Source: Blastocatellia bacterium
GTDB lineage: Bacteria > Acidobacteriota > Blastocatellia > UBA7656 > JADIYM01
Length of the DNA stretch: 64,000 bases
Assembly: GCA_021463145.1 (NCBI GenBank)
Contig: JAJTWZ010000003.1
Coordinates: forward strand, 99,319 to 163,318
Direction of reading: 5' to 3'
The translations under genes and the position numbers were made by a program. The notes beneath the pieces are model-generated. The model had not been told where the DNA came from, did no database searches, and saw only the letters and a program-made list of their open reading frames with translations. This document shows positions 33,028-45,311 of the stretch, in pieces (positions within the stretch are counted from its first letter, which is position 1; each line of letters opens with the position of its first letter).

Positions 33028-34683
33028 ATGAGCCACATGTCTTCGATCATGAAGAGGCTGCGCGAACTCAAGGGGGAGTTCGACGCGATGGGCTCGATCG
33101 CCCTCCTGCCCGCCGAAGACTTCGGTGAATTCGGGCGGCTCTGTCTCGAACTGCTCTACCTGACCGAAGACCTGGCCGCCCCTCCCGCCGCGGACGACTC
33201 TCCAGAGGATTGCATCGATCAGCTGGTGGTGATCGCCTTGACGCTTCGTCGTTCCGGTGACGACGTCACGGCAACCGAGATCTTCCTGCGGACCGCGTGC
33301 TTTGCGGATACGCGTGGCCTCGGCCGCCTGTCTTCACTCGCGTACAACCTGGCTGGCATCAGTTTCTACAATCTCGGGCAGTACGAATCGGCGATCGAAT
33401 CGTTCGAGCAGGCGCTGGAGAGGCTCACGGACGACGAGCACGGTCTGGTTCGTTCGACGATCATACGGCTGAACTGGGGCAACGTGCTTCACGACCAGAG
33501 AAGGTTCGACGAAGCGGAATGTGTCTACGAAAGCGTTCTAAAGCAGGTCGACGAGATTCCGGCGGACGTATTCTCTGGCAATTCCGCGTTCGAGTCCGAC
33601 CGGATGAGGGGAATGCTCTGCAACAACCTGGGCGCAAATCGGACCGAGTGGGCCCGCAGCGATTCGGGCCACGGTGCGGAGTCGTGTCCGCACCTCACAA
33701 TTGCGGAACACTTCCTGTCTCGGGCCATCGCCGCGCCACTATCGCCCAACGAGCACCTGCAGGCACGCACGAACTTCGCTCACTCGCTCATCCTGAGAGG
33801 ACGGCCCGATGAGGCCGAGCGCGAACTTCGCCAACTCGCCAGCCAATGCGCGGCCGACCGCGACTTGATGTTGCAACTCCCCGAGATCTACAGGTTCACC
33901 GCCGAGTCACGGGTAGCCCAGGGCGATCATCGGGGGGCACTCACCGACTGTTACCGGGCGCTCGAGTCCAGCCTGGCCGTCGCGGACCGTCTCCAGGAGA
34001 GAAAGGTCGTCGATACCTTCGTCGCCGCGATGAAGGTCACTTCGAGCGTATTGATAGATGGATCGGATACTCGCGAGCGAAAGGCGGAGCGTCTCATGAA
34101 CGAGGCATCCGATTTCGTCGACCGGCTCGTGGATTTCCTGGAAAGAAAGGATCTGTACACGGGTCTGAATCATTCCAAGGCAGTGCAAACGTTATCGGTC
34201 CGAACGGCGCGAGTACTCGTTTCCGACACCGGACCTGCCGGCGAGCGGGCCCGCCGCGAGGTCGAGATGCATTCGCTGGGACTTGCCGCGGCCCTTCACG
34301 ACATCGGCAAACTCTTCGTTCCCTGGAGCCTGCTCAACAAGCTCATCCCTCTAAACGAGGGCGAACGGTCGATTCTGAGAAAGCACTCGGAAAATGGACG
34401 GTACATTCTCGAGCAGGTCGGCCTGCCGGAAATCGGTGCGATCGTCGTGGAGCATCACGAGGCGCCTGACGGCTCGGGATATCCTACTGGCCGGCGGGAT
34501 AGTTCGCTGATGGGCGCTACCATTGCCGTTGCGGACGCCTTCGAGGCGATGACGACAGTCAACCGCCATTACCGCCGGGCCAAGTCCCGAGCGGAGGCCG
34601 TAGCGGAGATCAAGGGACTCGCACACGCGCAGTTCGACGGAGACGCCGCTCGAGCGCTCGAGGTGGCGCTCTCTCGAGCGTAG
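33028..34683 (+). CDS. TPR-HD-GYP protein, probable cyclic di-GMP phosphodiesterase
   Basis: A 551-residue cytoplasmic protein. Residues about 90-340 are tetratricopeptide-like helical repeats (for example YNLAGISFYNLGQYESAIES). The C-terminal 180 residues are an HD-GYP domain: metal pair His424-Asp425 in ALHDIGKLFVP, then EHHEAPDGSGYPTG (HHE and GYP at 484-486), and IAVADAFEAMTT. All motif residues needed for cyclic di-GMP or cyclic GMP-AMP hydrolysis look intact. The TPR part should sense a protein or peptide partner. The ATG at 33028 is followed by a second in-frame ATG at residue 4. Its 3' end is overlapped by the antisense ZAS gene. Confidence 0.92.
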   Translation: MSHMSSIMKRLRELKGEFDAMGSIALLPAEDFGEFGRLCLELLYLTEDLAAPPAADDSPEDCIDQLVVIALTLRRSGDDVTATEIFLRTACFADTRGLGRLSSLAYNLAGISFYNLGQYESAIESFEQALERLTDDEHGLVRSTIIRLNWGNVLHDQRRFDEAECVYESVLKQVDEIPADVFSGNSAFESDRMRGMLCNNLGANRTEWARSDSGHGAESCPHLTIAEHFLSRAIAAPLSPNEHLQARTNFAHSLILRGRPDEAERELRQLASQCAADRDLMLQLPEIYRFTAESRVAQGDHRGALTDCYRALESSLAVADRLQERKVVDTFVAAMKVTSSVLIDGSDTRERKAERLMNEASDFVDRLVDFLERKDLYTGLNHSKAVQTLSVRTARVLVSDTGPAGERARREVEMHSLGLAAALHDIGKLFVPWSLLNKLIPLNEGERSILRKHSENGRYILEQVGLPEIGAIVVEHHEAPDGSGYPTGRRDSSLMGATIAVADAFEAMTTVNRHYRRAKSRAEAVAEIKGLAHAQFDGDAARALEVALSRA

Positions 34684-37373: not shown

Positions 37374-38204
37374 CTATTGCGCCTGTCGCAACCTCTCTAT
37401 GTCGTTCAGGATCGATCGGACAAGGACCTCGAGCACGCGCACGCCCTTCGCTCTAGTGGCAAGAGTCGCATCGCCGTATACCCCGGACGCGGAGTACGTG
37501 CCCGAACCGCCCGGTGACCTTGTGAGCCGGCCCTGACCGGGATGGTAGTCCTTGACCGCCTTTCGCATGTCAACTGTCCGCGGCGCAATCACAAGCATCA
37601 TCGACGTCTCGATCTCGTCGGCGTGAGTGCCGCCCTCCTGCTTCCCAACCTCTTTCTCCACCGGCCCGAGAGTAGTCAAAAGGTCCGTGTAGGCCATCTT
37701 GATGCCGTCGGCGGCAAGCGCCTCGACGGCCGGCGCGAGCGCCCGATTCGTCGAAACACCGGTATTGAGCACGTAAAAGCGCTTGGGGCCAAAACGGGAG
37801 AGACTCCGGCAGATGTCGACGACGAGGTCCCTGGCGGTCTCGAGCCGCAGTCCCGTCGAGCCGGGATACTCAACGAATGCCGGATAAAAGTGATAGTTCA
37901 CGGTTGGTGCAATCACGACATCTGCCTGCAACAGAACTTTGACCTTCAGATATTCGGCAATCAGCAGGTCGTTCTTTAGCTTCAAGTGAGGCCCGTGCTC
38001 CTTCGACGCCGCGCCGAGCGGTATGACGACGACGGTGTCTGGCGTAAGTCGCTTCTCCGCTTCGACCCACGTCAGGTTCTCGAGCAGCACTCCTCTAGCC
38101 TTCCTGGCCTTCACGGGACGTCGCGCGCCCGCCAGTGCACTGCAGACAAATCCCAGCAAAACCACGACGACGGCGAGGCTTACGTAAACTTTTTTCATTT
38201 TCAT
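37374..38204 (-). CDS. Exported creatininase-family amidohydrolase
   Basis: A 276-residue protein with a signal peptide (YVSLAVVVVLLGFVCSALA), followed by the creatininase fold: IPLGAASKEHGPHLKLKND (Glu69, His70, His73, Asp79 as metal ligands) and GGTHADEIETSMML. Members hydrolyse cyclic or linear amides (creatinine, mycofactocin or coenzyme F420 precursors); which one cannot be told. Most creatininases are cytoplasmic, so the export signal is notable. It starts 42 bases from, and diverges from, the giant kinase-ATPase-SBP gene, so the two may share a regulatory region. Confidence 0.9.
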   Translation of the reverse strand: MKMKKVYVSLAVVVVLLGFVCSALAGARRPVKARKARGVLLENLTWVEAEKRLTPDTVVVIPLGAASKEHGPHLKLKNDLLIAEYLKVKVLLQADVVIAPTVNYHFYPAFVEYPGSTGLRLETARDLVVDICRSLSRFGPKRFYVLNTGVSTNRALAPAVEALAADGIKMAYTDLLTTLGPVEKEVGKQEGGTHADEIETSMMLVIAPRTVDMRKAVKDYHPGQGRLTRSPGGSGTYSASGVYGDATLATRAKGVRVLEVLVRSILNDIERLRQAQ

Positions 38205-38246: not shown

Positions 38247-41200
38247 ATGATCGGGACGCTTCTCGCCAACCGGTACGAAATCGTGCGCGAGCTCGGCCGC
38301 GGCGGCATGGGAATCGTCTATCTCGCGCGTGACACAGTACTGGAGCGCGAGGTTGCTGTGAAGCTGCTTCCGCCGGCGATGCTAGGCCCGGAAGCCGAAG
38401 AGCGCTTCCGTCGCGAAGCGCGCGTCGCCGGTCGAATGGACCATCCGGGAATCGTTCCCCTGCACGACATCGCGAAACACGGCGACTCCGTCTTCCTCGT
38501 CATGCCGTTCGTGCACGGGGCGCCGCTCCGCAAGCTCCTGACAGATCGTTCCGTTTCGGTTCGCGACGTCATAGAGATCGGCATCCGCGTTGCCGAAGCG
38601 CTGGAGCACAGTCACGGGCTCGGAGTCATCCACCGGGACATCAAGCCGGAAAACGTCATGGTCGACCGCGACGGCGACGACTCGCTTCGAGTTCGGGTCG
38701 CGGACTTCGGGGTTGCCGCCGCCGAATTCGAGGAGCGTGTGACGAAGTCAGGCGTCATCGTCGGCACGGGCTCGTATCTGAGCCCCGAGCAGGTGTCGGA
38801 AGGCATCGTCGATGCCCGCTCCGACATATTCTCGCTCGGCGTGCTGCTATACGAGTCGCTCGCGGGCGCATTGCCGTTCTCGGGAAGCGGAGCTTCGCTT
38901 TACTACCGCATTGCATTCACTGCTCCCAAGTCCCTTCGATCGTTCAACCCGGACGTCCCGGCCGAGCTCGACGAGCTCGTCCTCAAGTGTCTCGACAAGT
39001 CACCGGCCGCCCGGCCGCAGACGGCGCGACAACTCGCCGTCTCGCTGCGCTCGCTGCAACCGGGCTCGTCGGACTCGATTGCTCTTCCTTCTTCTTCGTC
39101 AGTTCCCGGACAGCGCATCGGGAGCTTAGCTGCCGGACAGGCCGCGTTCGTCGGCCGCGAGCGGGAGCTGGCGTCGCTCGTCGACCGACTGACCCGAGCC
39201 GAGGCCGGAGAGGCGCAACTCGTGCTCGTGGGCGGAGCGGCCGGAATCGGCAAGTCTCGCCTCGTCGACGAAGTGGATAGGGTAGCCCGCGGCCGGGGCG
39301 CGCGAGTACTGCACGGAAGGTTCCTGGACAGAGACCAGACGTTTCCCTTCCAGGGGTTCTGCGACGCCTTCCAGGAGTATTTCCTGTCCGAAGCGTTGAC
39401 CGCAGCCAGCGCTCCGGCCGAGCTCGCCGACCTGCTCCCTGAACTCATCAATCTATTTCCTTCGCTTGGCGAACTCTCGCCGGCCAGGACGACCACCTCC
39501 GGTCCGGTCGAGAATCTGACGTCTGGAGCCAACGCTTCCAGGATTTTCGTCGAGCGCTCCGAAGTGTTCGATCTGCTCGCCAAGACGATCGCGCGCATCG
39601 GGGCTGGCCGGCTCCTCGTCCTTCTGTTCGAGGATCTACACGCCAGCGACGGTTCAGTCGAGGCGCTCCAGTACGTGTTCCGCCGCTGTTCCGCAACGCC
39701 GACGCTTCTCGTCGCTACGTTTCGCGACGAAGACGCGTCGCCATCCGATCCCATCGGGACCCTTCTCGAGTCCATGCATGGCGACCGGCGATTCGAGGCG
39801 CTGCGGGTAGCCCCGCTAGGCGCCGAGTCACACCGGCAACTCGTCGCGTCCAGCATCGGCTCCGACTCCATTGATGAATCTCTTGTCGAGCGCCTTTACG
39901 AGATCACCGAGGGCAACCCGTTTTTCACGACCGAACTCGTCAAGTCGCTCCGCGATGCGGGCGACATTACTTCGTCGGCAACTGGCGATTGGCACATCAC
40001 GAGCTCGGACGGCATCACCCCGGAATCCCTGCCCGACACGATTCAGCGAGCCGTGGAGCATCGGATCAGGCGGCTAACCGACGCACAGCGCAACCTGATG
40101 TCCGTGGCCGCAGTGCTTGGTCGCACTTTCGCATTTCGCGATCTCGAAATGCTCGGGGACGACCTGCCCGTACTTGAACGCACAGTCGACGGGCTGGTCG
40201 ACGCCGGTTATTTCGTCGAGGAGCGTGAATCGCGCGGCGACCGCTTGACGTTTTCGAGCGGCATCGTGCGCGACGTGCTCTACGCCGGACTCGCCCGCCG
40301 CCGGCGCCGGTCGCTTCATCGGACGTTCGCTCAACGGCTGGAGCAACGCAGCGCAGCACGGATCGAGCTCGTCCTCCCCGATCTGCTGCACCATTTCGTC
40401 CAGGGGGACGTACCCGAAAAGGTCGTCAAGTTTGGAACTGCACTCGCTAAACGATACCTTGGCGCTTACAGTCCGCTCGAAGCGCGGCGGGCGGCCGATG
40501 CGGTGCTGGAATTTGCAAGCCGGACGGCACTCGAAGACCCGTCGGCCGAAGCTGAGGTTCGGGGCATACGGGCTCGAGCGCTCTGGATGGCCGGCATCCG
40601 GCAGCCGGCGCTCGACGAGTTCCAACTAGCCATAGCCGGATTCCGGAACGCCGGCGACGCCAGCGCCGAGTTGGCTACCATCGCGGCCGCAGCTGAGTCG
40701 GCGTGGGCAGGCCGATACGCAGTCGCCACTGCCGCCCTCGTCGAACGCGGTCTGGAACTAGGGCGCAAAGTGCTGCGTCCTGGGGACGGTGACGGTGAGA
40801 CGCTCGATGAAGATCGCGCCAGTTTCGGCCGGATTCTCAAACTTGGCGCAACTGGCGCGAACCTGCGGGGCGAGTTCGAGCTTGCTTCTCGCCTGTTGAC
40901 CGAACGCGACAATCTGTTCGATTCCAAGGAGGACCGGCAAATCGAGCTCGATCGTGGAGCGACCCTGCGCCTGGCCGTTCCGCCCGCGATTCAGGCCCGC
41001 CATCCTGTCAATTGCAGAACAAGAGGCGACATCGAGACACTTGCGGCCTCTTTCGAGACTCTTCTGGTGACGGACTCGAACGGCGTTCTCATTCCCAACC
41101 TCGTCGACAGGTGGGAATGCCAGGAAGACGGACGACGATTCCGGCTGCACTTGCGAACCGGCATTAGTTCACACGACGGAAGCCCGGTCACTGCCGATGT

Positions 41201-43940
41201 AGTTCGATCTGCAATCGCGCACGCAATTCGCGTGTGCGAGCCAGGACGCGACCTGCCGCCTGCTTTCTCGTTGCTGCAGGACGTCGCATCGTTCCGCAAT
41301 GGGAAGAGTCCAACGCTGGATGCGCTCGCGGCGGACGGTCAGACGCTGACCGTCGAGTTGGACCGGCCGCTTCCGATCTTCCCCTCTCTGCTAACGGACA
41401 TTCGCGCTGCCATCGCCGTGCCACTCGGCGACGGATCCGACGAAGTGGCCGGCACAGGGCCGTTCATGATTCGTACAATCGGCGACGACAGGGTTGCGCT
41501 CGCGCGAAACGCCCAGCCCTGGCGCGGATCGCCGGCAAACGTGGCGGCAATCGAGGTCGTCGGGAGGTTGAACGGGCAGGAGCTTGCCGCACGCGCCGCA
41601 TCGGGCGAGTCCGACATCGTCCGCGGCGTGCCGGGGCTCGAGATCGAAGAGTTGCTCCAGGATCGCCGCCGGCGATATCGGCTGATCGAAGCCCCTGGCT
41701 CCAACATCTGGTTCCTGCTCTTCAACCGCCGGCGCGAATCGGCCGTCGGTCCGGAACTGCGCGCGGCCATGTGCGCAATCCTGCAGGTGCACGACGTCGT
41801 CAAGACGCACATTGGCAGATTCGCGATCCCGGCGGAAGGCGTCATCCCGCCGCGGACGCTTGGACACGATCCGAACCGCCGCCGTCATCCGGTTACCCAC
41901 GACCAGATCGATGTCTGGCTCGCTTCGAGCCCGTCGCCGCGCAAGCTGACAGCGCACGTGGACTACGGATTCTGCCATCGTCACCGGAGGTTGATCGACG
42001 CGATAGTAGGGCTCTGGTCGGACTATGGAATCGACGTCGAAACCCTGGACGCGCCCGATGCCAATCCCTGTCATCTGGAGTCCCTCGCCGACACCGTCGA
42101 CGTAGCGTTCAGCGGATGGGCCGGCGATTACTCGGATCCGGACGCATTCACCTACGCGCTCTTCCACTCGCGTGATGGCGAACTGCGACGGTTCGTCGAA
42201 GGAACGGAACTAGACGAGAGCCTCGAGGCCGCGCGCGCCGAGCAAACGGCGGAGCGGCGCGAGTTGCTGTACCGCGACATCGAGGACAGGCTACAGGCCG
42301 GCAACTTCGTCCTGCCGTTGTTCCACGAGAACGATCACAGGCTCGTTTCCCAACGCGTTCGCCGGCTAGCGCTCAAGAGTGACGCGCCGTACCTGAATTT
42401 CGAGGCCGTGGGAAAAACTCCGGCCAGGTCGGTCGCGGAGCAGCGTGTACGCGGTGGCGGACGGATTCACGTTCCGGTGCCGGTTGGCTGCGACCTTCAG
42501 TCGCTCGATCCATCGTTGATTCGAATGGACATCGAGTCCGAAGTGCTCGGCACCGTATTCGAGCCGCTCGTCCGTAATCCTGACGGTGCGCGGGTGGTCC
42601 CGTGGCTTGCGCGGTCCTTCGCCATCGAGGATGGAGGACGCAGATTTCGGTTCGTCTTGCGGGACGATGTCACATTTCACAACGGGCGATCGCTGACGGC
42701 TCGCGACGTGCGCTTCACGCTCGAACGCCTGATGCGAAACCCGGAGAGCCAGTTCCGCTGGCATCTGGCGCCCATCCGCGGCGCGACCGCACTCCTCAAT
42801 GGGACGGCGAGCGAACTGGAAGGATTCCGAATCGTCTCGCGCCTCGAGTTCACCATCGAGCTCGACAATCCGGTTGCGTTCTTCGTTTCCCTGCTGACCG
42901 ATCCAGCCGTGGCGATCGTTCCGGAAACCTCGTCGCCACAGTCTGGCGTGTTGAAGGAAGCCGCCGTAGGCACGGGACCATTCCACGTCGTGCGATTCGA
43001 ACCAGGGAAGCGACTGGAGCTTGACGCCAACCCGACCTACTGGAGAGACGGCCTGCCCAAGGCTGACGGCGTAACGTTCCTGTTCGGCAGCACGCCCCAT
43101 TCGACCGCCGAGTCCTTCCGTGCCGGCCGCGCCTCGATCGCATGGAACCTGCTGCCGGAGGACGAAGCGCTCCTGCGGACCGATCCGGCCGTCGCCGCCA
43201 GCTATACCGAATCGCCCGGACTGCATACGGTCATGCTCGCGTTCAACTGCCATTCCGGCCCGCTTGCGGACGAAGCCATCCGTCAGCACATCGTCGGATC
43301 GCTGGATGTGGACTCGATAGTGCGACGTGCGGCCGGACCGTATGCGACCGTAGCCAACAGCATTGTTCCGCCCGGGCTCCTCGGGCACGGCTGCGGCAAT
43401 TTCACGACTACGGGCACTTCGATCAGGCCCGCACCCCTCGGGCGCGACCTCGAGCTGAGCTGCCTGATGCGGCCGCTCTACACCGAAGGCGCTGAAAAGT
43501 CGCTTCGCGAATCGCTGTTCGATGCCCTCGCGGAAATTGGAGTTCGAGTGCGCATCAACTGCCCGCAGGGCGACGACTGGGAAGCCGCTCGCGCCGCAGC
43601 CGTTGACGACATGTTCCTGTTCGGCTGGCTTGCCGACTATCCGGACGCCGATTCCTTCATCCACGGACTCCTCCGGTCCGGGCGCGGCTGGATTGGAAAG
43701 CTCTGCGGCGCTCCCGATATCGACAGGCTTATCGACCGGAGCCGCACCGCAATCGATCCCGAACTGCGCCACGACCTGTATCGCGAAATCGAGGCCGTCG
43801 TCGCACGGCGAGCGCTGTTGCTGCCGCTCGTTCATTCGCGCAGCTACAGGTACGTCCGTCCCGAGGTCCGGGGCCTGGAAGTCTCGCTCGCCCTGCCCTA
43901 CGTCGCATACGAGAAACTCTGGATCGACTCGTCACGTTGA
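38247..43940 (+). CDS. Giant fusion: Ser/Thr kinase, AAA/STAND-type ATPase, helical region and two SBP_bac_5 domains
   Basis: A 1,897-residue protein. Residues about 9-270 form a Hanks-type kinase with all key residues (GRGGMG loop, Lys39 in VAVK, HRDIKPEN at 129-136, DFG at 153-155, SPEQVSEGIVDARSDIFSLG). Residues about 300-640 form an AAA_16/STAND-like ATPase: Walker A GGAAGIGKS at 329-337, Walker B LLVLLFEDLH near 456-465, and GNPFFTTELV. About 650-890 are helical, TPR-like. From about 905 and from about 1402 come two solute-binding domains of the SBP_bac_5 type, with GTGPFMIR and GTGPFHVVRFEPGKRLELD motifs and YW-R-GLPKADGV. No transmembrane segment is seen, so all parts look cytoplasmic, as in SgrR. 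The likely role is ligand-sensing signalling; partners and ligand are unknown. ATG at 38247 has GGACGG upstream. Confidence 0.9.
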   Translation: MIGTLLANRYEIVRELGRGGMGIVYLARDTVLEREVAVKLLPPAMLGPEAEERFRREARVAGRMDHPGIVPLHDIAKHGDSVFLVMPFVHGAPLRKLLTDRSVSVRDVIEIGIRVAEALEHSHGLGVIHRDIKPENVMVDRDGDDSLRVRVADFGVAAAEFEERVTKSGVIVGTGSYLSPEQVSEGIVDARSDIFSLGVLLYESLAGALPFSGSGASLYYRIAFTAPKSLRSFNPDVPAELDELVLKCLDKSPAARPQTARQLAVSLRSLQPGSSDSIALPSSSSVPGQRIGSLAAGQAAFVGRERELASLVDRLTRAEAGEAQLVLVGGAAGIGKSRLVDEVDRVARGRGARVLHGRFLDRDQTFPFQGFCDAFQEYFLSEALTAASAPAELADLLPELINLFPSLGELSPARTTTSGPVENLTSGANASRIFVERSEVFDLLAKTIARIGAGRLLVLLFEDLHASDGSVEALQYVFRRCSATPTLLVATFRDEDASPSDPIGTLLESMHGDRRFEALRVAPLGAESHRQLVASSIGSDSIDESLVERLYEITEGNPFFTTELVKSLRDAGDITSSATGDWHITSSDGITPESLPDTIQRAVEHRIRRLTDAQRNLMSVAAVLGRTFAFRDLEMLGDDLPVLERTVDGLVDAGYFVEERESRGDRLTFSSGIVRDVLYAGLARRRRRSLHRTFAQRLEQRSAARIELVLPDLLHHFVQGDVPEKVVKFGTALAKRYLGAYSPLEARRAADAVLEFASRTALEDPSAEAEVRGIRARALWMAGIRQPALDEFQLAIAGFRNAGDASAELATIAAAAESAWAGRYAVATAALVERGLELGRKVLRPGDGDGETLDEDRASFGRILKLGATGANLRGEFELASRLLTERDNLFDSKEDRQIELDRGATLRLAVPPAIQARHPVNCRTRGDIETLAASFETLLVTDSNGVLIPNLVDRWECQEDGRRFRLHLRTGISSHDGSPVTADVVRSAIAHAIRVCEPGRDLPPAFSLLQDVASFRNGKSPTLDALAADGQTLTVELDRPLPIFPSLLTDIRAAIAVPLGDGSDEVAGTGPFMIRTIGDDRVALARNAQPWRGSPANVAAIEVVGRLNGQELAARAASGESDIVRGVPGLEIEELLQDRRRRYRLIEAPGSNIWFLLFNRRRESAVGPELRAAMCAILQVHDVVKTHIGRFAIPAEGVIPPRTLGHDPNRRRHPVTHDQIDVWLASSPSPRKLTAHVDYGFCHRHRRLIDAIVGLWSDYGIDVETLDAPDANPCHLESLADTVDVAFSGWAGDYSDPDAFTYALFHSRDGELRRFVEGTELDESLEAARAEQTAERRELLYRDIEDRLQAGNFVLPLFHENDHRLVSQRVRRLALKSDAPYLNFEAVGKTPARSVAEQRVRGGGRIHVPVPVGCDLQSLDPSLIRMDIESEVLGTVFEPLVRNPDGARVVPWLARSFAIEDGGRRFRFVLRDDVTFHNGRSLTARDVRFTLERLMRNPESQFRWHLAPIRGATALLNGTASELEGFRIVSRLEFTIELDNPVAFFVSLLTDPAVAIVPETSSPQSGVLKEAAVGTGPFHVVRFEPGKRLELDANPTYWRDGLPKADGVTFLFGSTPHSTAESFRAGRASIAWNLLPEDEALLRTDPAVAASYTESPGLHTVMLAFNCHSGPLADEAIRQHIVGSLDVDSIVRRAAGPYATVANSIVPPGLLGHGCGNFTTTGTSIRPAPLGRDLELSCLMRPLYTEGAEKSLRESLFDALAEIGVRVRINCPQGDDWEAARAAAVDDMFLFGWLADYPDADSFIHGLLRSGRGWIGKLCGAPDIDRLIDRSRTAIDPELRHDLYREIEAVVARRALLLPLVHSRSYRYVRPEVRGLEVSLALPYVAYEKLWIDSSR

Positions 43941-44069
43941 CATCGGACGGGCCGGAACGGAGAATGCGGCGCCCGCAGGGGTCTCCAGCTCGCGAGCAGG
44001 CGACGTAACAGCTGTACAGTCAGTGCTTTGCGGCTTATATAAATGATGATGCGATCGAGCGGAAGGTAC

Positions 44070-45311
44070 ATGAGGAAGCACACGAGAAGGTCGTTGCGTC
44101 GAATCCTTGCGGTAATGTTTTCATCGACGCTCCTGGTTTCTGCCGGCTGTGGTGTGTCGGCTCCATCCGGGAATGGCAATGCCGCTCCGGCGAACTCGAA
44201 TTCGACCGGTGTCGAGGGCGCAACAGCGCACGTGGATGCGACGGGAACGCTGCCGTACGACCTCGTGGCCGTGGATTTCGTGTCGAATGCAACCGGGTTT
44301 CTCGTCGGCAACGATGGGGAGAACAACGTAAGCGTGATCTGCCGGACCGTGAACGGCGGCGCGACCTGGGTGGCTGTGCTCGAGATCGTAGGAGAGTCGC
44401 TGCTCGACGTGGATTTCGTCGACGAGGAGAAAGGTTGGGCCGTCGGAGCCGAAGGCCTTATCTACGCGACGGCGGACGGTGGAAAATCGTGGACCGAGGA
44501 ATCGCCCGCGACGGTCTGGAAGGCTCAGCGTGTCACGGAACCGGTAACGGTCAGGCCGAAGACCGGCGACGGATCTGGACCGCCGATGATCACGAGCGAG
44601 AGCATCGCGTCGGTGTTCTTCATCGACTCGAGGACGGGATGGGCGGCTGGAGACGTCCCGACGGGAGAAAGCGTCGACGTGCGCGGCATCGTTCTTGGAA
44701 CGAAGGATGGCGGAGCGTCCTGGACCGAACTGAAACAACCCGATGGGGCGCCTGTCATTCCGGTTGCGGTAAATGACGTTCATTTCGTGAGCCGGAACGA
44801 AGGATGGGCCGCTGCGGGGAACCTGGAGAATGGCGAGGAAGACATGCTCTTCCACACGACGGACGGCGGCTCGACGTGGGCGCGGCAGCCCGCAGTTGGC
44901 GGCCAGTACCTTCGTGCTGTTCATTTCGTCTCCCAGACGCGAGGTTTCGCGGTAGGAATGACGATCGACTCGGTCACGGAGCTTCCGGGGCCGTCAAAGA
45001 TCCTCGCTACGACGGACGGCGGAGCCACGTGGAAGGTCGCCCTCGTTGCGGAGCGCAGTTTTTTCGACGTGACGTTCGTCGACTCGAACCGTGGCTGGGC
45101 CGTGGGCGATCGGGCATCGGTTTACGCGACAACGGACGGCGGAGCCACGTGGAAGCAGCAATCGAAATTCGTCGTCACGGATGTTCCGAACCGGCAGCGG
45201 CCTCCAAAGAGACCAGGTGCGCCTACGGCTCGGGCGTTCCGGACAGTGCTTGCGTTGTCGGCCGCCGATGTCTGGGCCGCGGGTGAGGGCCAGATCCTGC
45301 GGAGGAAATGA
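44070..45311 (+). CDS. Ycf48-like BNR-repeat beta-propeller lipoprotein
   Basis: A 413-residue exported protein. The leader RRILAVMFSSTLLVSAGCG looks like a lipoprotein signal (Cys near residue 28), although the lipobox is not perfect. The rest is about seven propeller blades with BNR/Asp-box motifs such as TTDGGATWK and TVNGGATWV, alternating with YCF48-type strands (VDFVDEEKGWAVGAEG, VTFVDSNRGWAVGD). Ycf48/HCF136 proteins help assemble photosystem II in phototrophs; in other bacteria such proteins are of unknown use, usually surface or periplasmic. ATG at 44070 has GGAAGG immediately upstream; an ATG run at 44043 is an alternative. Confidence 0.85.
   Translation: MRKHTRRSLRRILAVMFSSTLLVSAGCGVSAPSGNGNAAPANSNSTGVEGATAHVDATGTLPYDLVAVDFVSNATGFLVGNDGENNVSVICRTVNGGATWVAVLEIVGESLLDVDFVDEEKGWAVGAEGLIYATADGGKSWTEESPATVWKAQRVTEPVTVRPKTGDGSGPPMITSESIASVFFIDSRTGWAAGDVPTGESVDVRGIVLGTKDGGASWTELKQPDGAPVIPVAVNDVHFVSRNEGWAAAGNLENGEEDMLFHTTDGGSTWARQPAVGGQYLRAVHFVSQTRGFAVGMTIDSVTELPGPSKILATTDGGATWKVALVAERSFFDVTFVDSNRGWAVGDRASVYATTDGGATWKQQSKFVVTDVPNRQRPPKRPGAPTARAFRTVLALSAADVWAAGEGQILRRK

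Follow-up and report, generated by a model that had tools for sequence, protein, structure and literature searches.

The window, that is, the whole 64,000-nucleotide stretch of Blastocatellia DNA analysed here, encodes one intact chain of 1,897 residues that joins a Ser/Thr kinase, a STAND-type NTPase and two family-5 solute-binding protein (SBP) modules. We consider it probable that this protein is a soluble STAND transducer, in which the SBP pair would be the sensor, the ATPase the switch and phosphorylation by the kinase the output. At least 22 complete proteins, the window protein included, have the same domain order.

Domain architecture

The open reading frame and its domains are as follows:

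38247..43940, forward strand: whole open reading frame, 1,897 aa, kinase-STAND-SBP_A-SBP_B (frame reading, Pfam, homologues)
38274..39026, forward strand: Hanks-type Ser/Thr kinase domain, residues 10–260 (Pfam PF00069, 2e-47; motif table)
39147..39710, forward strand: STAND/AAA_16 NTPase core, residues 301–488 (Pfam PF13191, 8e-21; GRE, Walker A, Walker B)
39711..40949, forward strand: helical lid carrying EGNPFF, a winged helix and TPR-like hairpins of helices, residues 489–901 (AlphaFold2, Foldseek)
40953..42431, forward strand: SBP_bac_5 module A, residues ~903–1395 (Pfam; GTGPF at 1069, amino-anchor Asp at 1294)
42450..43940, forward strand: SBP_bac_5 module B, residues 1402–1897 (Pfam; GTGPF at 1575, amino-anchor Asp at 1797)

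The frame begins with ATG at 38247, ends with its stop at 43940 and contains no internal stop. It stays open upstream as far as a GTG at 37986, and the starts of homologues match 38247. The kinase and ATPase motifs named in the preliminary description were all located in the translation. The kinase has VAVK at residues 36–39, HRDIKPEN at 129–136 and DFG at 153–155, so that the catalytic set is intact, and the protein shows the hallmarks of Hanks-type kinases (a Pkinase domain with VAxK, HRDxKPxN, DFG and APE/SPE). The second domain carries GRE (303–305), the Walker A motif GGAAGIGKS (329–337), the Walker B motif LLVLLFED (456–463) and EGNPFF (555–560), which together represent the motif set of STAND NTPases (GRExE-like, Walker A, Walker B acidic pair, downstream GNP). 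SBP_bac_5 (PF00496) matches in two stretches (320 bits, combined E 2.4e-95, cut-off 32.4) within the last ~990 residues, and each module contains the GTGPF motif and the Asp of a DY motif that had been claimed for it.

The binding modules had been predicted to be cytoplasmic, and the hydropathy profile agrees. The highest 19-residue Kyte-Doolittle mean of the window protein is 1.57, and we find no signal peptide and no membrane segment between domains, including near residue 900, on the basis of a simple hydropathy scan rather than a trained predictor (no stretch reaches 1.6). The marks that accompany export of ABC-transporter SBPs, a signal peptide and a lipobox, are absent from the protein. 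In 48 further fused proteins the linker preceding the first SBP never exceeds a mean of 1.42. A few open frames have a hydrophobic stretch before the first domain. In L016 and L174 its position is at the likely start or ahead of it; some frames of the chemoreceptor type described below (L202, L204 and L210) also have one upstream of the first domain.

The STAND core

STAND proteins sense with their C-terminal part and act with their N-terminal part; in the window protein the SBPs lie at the sensing end. In the AlphaFold2 model of residues 299–935 (mean pLDDT 80.7) the ATPase is accompanied by a region resembling a winged helix and by about ten helices arranged in pairs. The middle of the protein, previously described only as helical, is indeed so and can be refined in the model to a winged helix followed by TPR-like hairpins (mean pLDDT 81). 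A Foldseek search with this model returned 6mfv, a STAND protein with TPRs, as the best match, followed by Apaf-1, CED-4, plant NLRs and resistosomes, and MalT; as the TM-scores are low (0.2–0.3), these matches speak for the fold class but not for the mechanism. The modeled structure thus appears to follow the STAND layout of a core succeeded by a winged helix and superstructure repeats. TPR_MalT matches in the homologues are weak, and a sequence search of the PDB with the STAND-core profile gave no match.

Distribution of the family

An SBP-B profile was searched over 396 sampled Acidobacteriota genomes and the surrounding DNA was fetched for reading. The four-part order occurs in about 15 of these 396, a lower bound, as scoring was restricted to the top few candidates of each genome. 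The same design is found in two of 284 genomes of the phylum of a Myxococcales MAG (L017), one of these Myxococcota cases, on a contig of >250 kb, being judged by frame length and a double SBP match alone. The preliminary description had treated the window protein as a single odd chain; it belongs to a family that spans phyla. The nearest named full-length relative is L016, from an Acidobacteriota MAG. Complete relatives share 47–55% identity with the window protein in the kinase, 41–50% in the ATPase, 30–36% in the helical arm, 32–36% in SBP-A and 38–47% in SBP-B. The kinase HRD is intact in 26 of 27 aligned members, and Walker A in all 27.

Gemmatimonadota hold close free SBPs. Over 249 genomes of the phylum of the Gemmatimonadota MAG L021, the SBP-B profile finds almost only frames of 460–715 aa; those read have a lipoprotein-like leader, unlike the window protein. 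Among the listed matches beyond 1e-70 no Gemmatimonadota fusion was found, one 1281-aa frame being set aside. L175 (2545-8973, reverse strand) is a family member with two tandem kinase domains ahead of the STAND core, and two Thermoplasmata MAGs (L020:8001-10214 and L082:8001-10202) encode a kinase with a STAND-like region matching residues 3–755 of the window protein.

The tandem SBP modules

A midpoint-rooted FastTree phylogeny with 83 SBP domains places every one of the 26 A copies in a single clade (support 1.0) and every one of the 29 B copies in a second (0.94); A and B together stand apart from chemoreceptor-linked and free SBPs (1.0). Adding the free SBPs of Gemmatimonadota left these clades unchanged. 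Because the A and B clades jointly exclude free SBPs, the tandem probably arose once in the fused lineage and was then retained. Four single-SBP versions (L187, L191, L130 and L195) carry an SBP of B type, which suggests either that A was lost or that an ancestor had B alone.

Among solved structures, SBP-A is closest in sequence to MppA and OppA, and SBP-B to a peptide-binding protein from Mesorhizobium and to OppA. Both modules align with OppA, MppA and DppA over nearly the full chain; the AlphaFold model of the pair is poor (pLDDT 58.5). In OppA, the Asp of the "ADY" motif holds the amino end of the peptide. A residue aligned with this Asp (of "GWCADY" in OppA) is present in 21 of 26 A copies, 25 of 29 B copies and 19 of 20 chemoreceptor-fused SBPs. 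As it is gone from five A and four B copies, the two sites may have different ligands, or not all of them may bind one.

Exchange of output domains

In L138 and L195 a Trans_reg_C domain (an OmpR-type DNA-binding domain) stands where the kinase is otherwise found. In the ATPase tree these two proteins do not group together but lie at separate places among the kinase proteins (moderate support), a placement that fits an exchanged N-terminal domain. Two paralogues in the window's own genome have altered kinases: HRALRPEN replaces HRDIKPEN in L129, and the kinase of L130 has no activation segment. L129 (10068-14362, forward strand; listed together with L136), a probable pseudokinase, runs off contig C94; a 469-aa SBP-B fragment on contig C74 may be its tail. 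The STAND-SBP part is thus constant and the outputs are variable, as expected for a sensor module.

Chemoreceptor and other SBP fusions

A methyl-accepting chemotaxis protein (MCP) signaling region is followed by one C-terminal SBP_bac_5 domain in 20 proteins of ~1,000–1,200 aa, among them:

L140:7468-10587, reverse strand: MCP-SBP_bac_5 fusion
L142:7485-10580, reverse strand: MCP-SBP_bac_5 fusion
L127:6228-9695, forward strand: MCP-SBP_bac_5 fusion
L128:7729-10809, reverse strand: MCP-SBP_bac_5 fusion

The window's own genome has two such fusions and one CheA-type match. These proteins are apparently soluble chemoreceptors with an OppA-like sensor. Their SBPs form a clade of their own (18 of 20 together), which indicates a recruitment separate from that of the STAND-SBP family. 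SBP_bac is among the ligand-binding domains of archaeal chemoreceptors (PMC9680633), and given this precedent the chemoreceptor fusion is the less new half of our observations. Within the window's order, fusions of ~1,030 aa occur in all seven same-order genomes (G001–G007), their presence in G006 and G007 being judged by frame length alone. In L127 (contig C118) one search gives the chemoreceptor-SBP frame a length of 1,446 aa that includes a single in-frame TAG, versus 1,155 aa open, and the start or end of this gene may be disrupted. Frames of 865–953 aa at L198 (7860-10721, reverse strand), L199 (6840-9491, forward strand) and L200 (7880-10477, reverse strand) contain ~370–460 residues with no Pfam match ahead of SBP_bac_5; they are possibly another SBP fusion, or open frames that exceed the gene.

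Genomic context

The window gene lies between a creatininase gene (37374-38204, reverse strand) and a gene for a YCF48/BNR-repeat protein (44043-45311, forward strand); further neighboring frames have no Pfam match. Nearby, 33028-34683 (forward strand) encodes one protein in which an HD_5 (HD-GYP-like) domain comes after TPR repeats. When the neighbors of ~30 loci were clustered, no family recurred at more than three loci, and thus no pathway is indicated by genomic context. Large upstream genes were considered as a shared partner and rejected, as they are unrelated to each other (kinase-TPR, sulfatase, polyphosphate kinase). Comparison of the permease list with the fused loci of the window's own genome revealed no permease beside a fused SBP gene; in the same genome, BPD_transp_1 permeases adjoin two unfused SBP_bac_5 genes, on contigs C110 and C112.

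Comparison with known systems

The parallels drawn at the outset, with SgrR and with PknK-type proteins, hold. The SBP-like domain of SgrR, the E. coli sugar-phosphate stress regulator, is cytosolic. Like the window protein, SgrR joins a cytosolic family-5 SBP-like domain to an output domain, but it binds DNA, has a single SBP and lacks both ATPase and kinase. The window protein is not a member of the SgrR family (34.3 bits versus a cut-off of 476 for NF010149), and its N-terminus is a kinase. MalT, PknK and NLR/Apaf-1-type proteins share with it the succession of an effector, an NTPase with GRE, Walker and GNP motifs, a winged helix with a TPR-like arm, and a sensor. Their sensors, however, are TPR, WD40 or LRR superstructures, whereas in the window family one or two SBPs follow the TPR-like arm. 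What looks new is the SBP-pair sensor within the known class of STAND signal transducers.

Other systems share single elements. TOMM kinase/cyclase fusions (TIGR03903) also combine a kinase with an AAA_16-type region, and the window protein scores 224.3 bits against that model, below its cut-off of 705.75. Periplasmic OppA, MppA and DppA have the SBP_bac_5 fold and the amino-anchor Asp, whereas the window protein is fused to a kinase and has no signal peptide, lipobox or adjacent permease. In the GlnH-GlnX-PknG system of Actinobacteria an SBP-family protein likewise controls a Ser/Thr kinase, but that SBP is an extracytoplasmic lipoprotein acting via a membrane protein, while the window protein is one soluble chain (PMC9769921). 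TPR and WD40 are common partners of Planctomycetota Ser/Thr kinases in a survey from which SBPs are absent (PMC11032199), and SBPs are not mentioned in a survey of Myxococcaceae signaling (PMC7694542). A word-matched search of the open-access literature found no description of a kinase-STAND-SBP chain.

Proposed function and alternatives

We propose that the two C-terminal modules bind, in the cytosol, a small ligand that is either imported or recycled; the most likely candidates are a short peptide and other compounds whose amino group is free. When the SBPs close, the TPR-like arm would transmit the change to the ATPase, and the ATPase would exchange nucleotide and self-associate. Self-association would gather the N-terminal kinase domains and allow their activation by trans-autophosphorylation, and the activated kinases would phosphorylate downstream targets. 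In this scheme we infer the ligand class, the direction of control, the oligomerization and the kinase substrates. The earlier suggestion that an imported ligand is sensed and phosphorylation is the output is plausible, and is strengthened by the swapping of outputs, the conservation of STAND motifs and the retention of the amino-anchor Asp.

The SBP modules might instead have ceased to bind small ligands and act as interaction or dimerization scaffolds that recruit kinase substrates, with another signal driving the STAND core. Loss of the anchor Asp in some copies, the lower conservation of module A than of module B between the window protein and its homologues, and the existence of single-SBP variants would fit such a role. 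A scaffold, however, would need neither a near full-length match to OppA/MppA over both lobes nor an anchor motif so largely conserved, and we regard this reading as rather unlikely. A transducer of the same architecture and logic could also respond to a non-peptide ligand, such as a sugar phosphate, an opine, a metal chelate or another metabolite, a kind of ligand also supposed for the SBP-like domain of SgrR. Ligands of SBP_bac_5 relatives include nickel complexes, haem and agrocinopines; SgrR regulates the response to glucose-phosphate stress and acts under it (PMC4021124). Yet the closest solved relatives bind peptides or murein tripeptide. The mostly retained anchor Asp and the OppA-like relatives favor a ligand in the cytosol that carries a free amino group, peptides first, and make a non-peptide ligand unlikely.

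An NLR-like antiphage system, in which the SBPs would recognize a phage product and the kinase would kill or arrest the infected cell, seems highly improbable. STAND NTPases and kinases are both known in defence, and PADLOC returns kinase matches such as PD-T4-6, but the best 25 of its 34 matches all fall within residues 1–340, the generic kinase region, and none of these 25 reveals a defence family beyond the generic kinase domain. The kinase-free homologue L138 has no PADLOC match, no defence-like context was seen around the loci inspected, and the forms with chemoreceptor or transcription-factor outputs suggest a role in metabolic sensing. Finally, the window's own genome is split into 173 contigs, and a chimeric assembly or read-through of two or more genes might be suspected. 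The probability of such an artefact is negligible: the frame has no internal stop, and the order is repeated in independent genomes, several on contigs of >180 kb. Homologues with equal domain order rule out an assembly chimera or gene read-through, and the persistence of the four-part order in distant relatives excludes chance and frameshift fusion as well. The claim that the chain is not split into separate genes therefore stands.

To our knowledge, family-5 SBPs are known almost wholly as extracytoplasmic scavengers for ABC importers, with SgrR as the standard cytosolic exception. The recurrence of one design with swapped outputs in distant bacteria suggests a sensor of nutrients or peptides inside the cell that has so far gone undescribed. 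More tentatively, family-5 SBPs may have been recruited on more than one occasion to serve as cytosolic sensors, with three outputs (STAND-kinase, STAND-transcription factor and soluble chemoreceptor), by which Acidobacteriota and a few Myxococcota would gain intracellular peptide sensing through NLR-like assembly triggered by an SBP pair. With an SBP pair as the sensor end of a STAND protein, and with interchangeable outputs, the ligand could be identified with standard binding assays and structural work. If the SBP-sensor reading is true, how a ligand opens a bacterial NLR-like ATPase would become a directly testable question.
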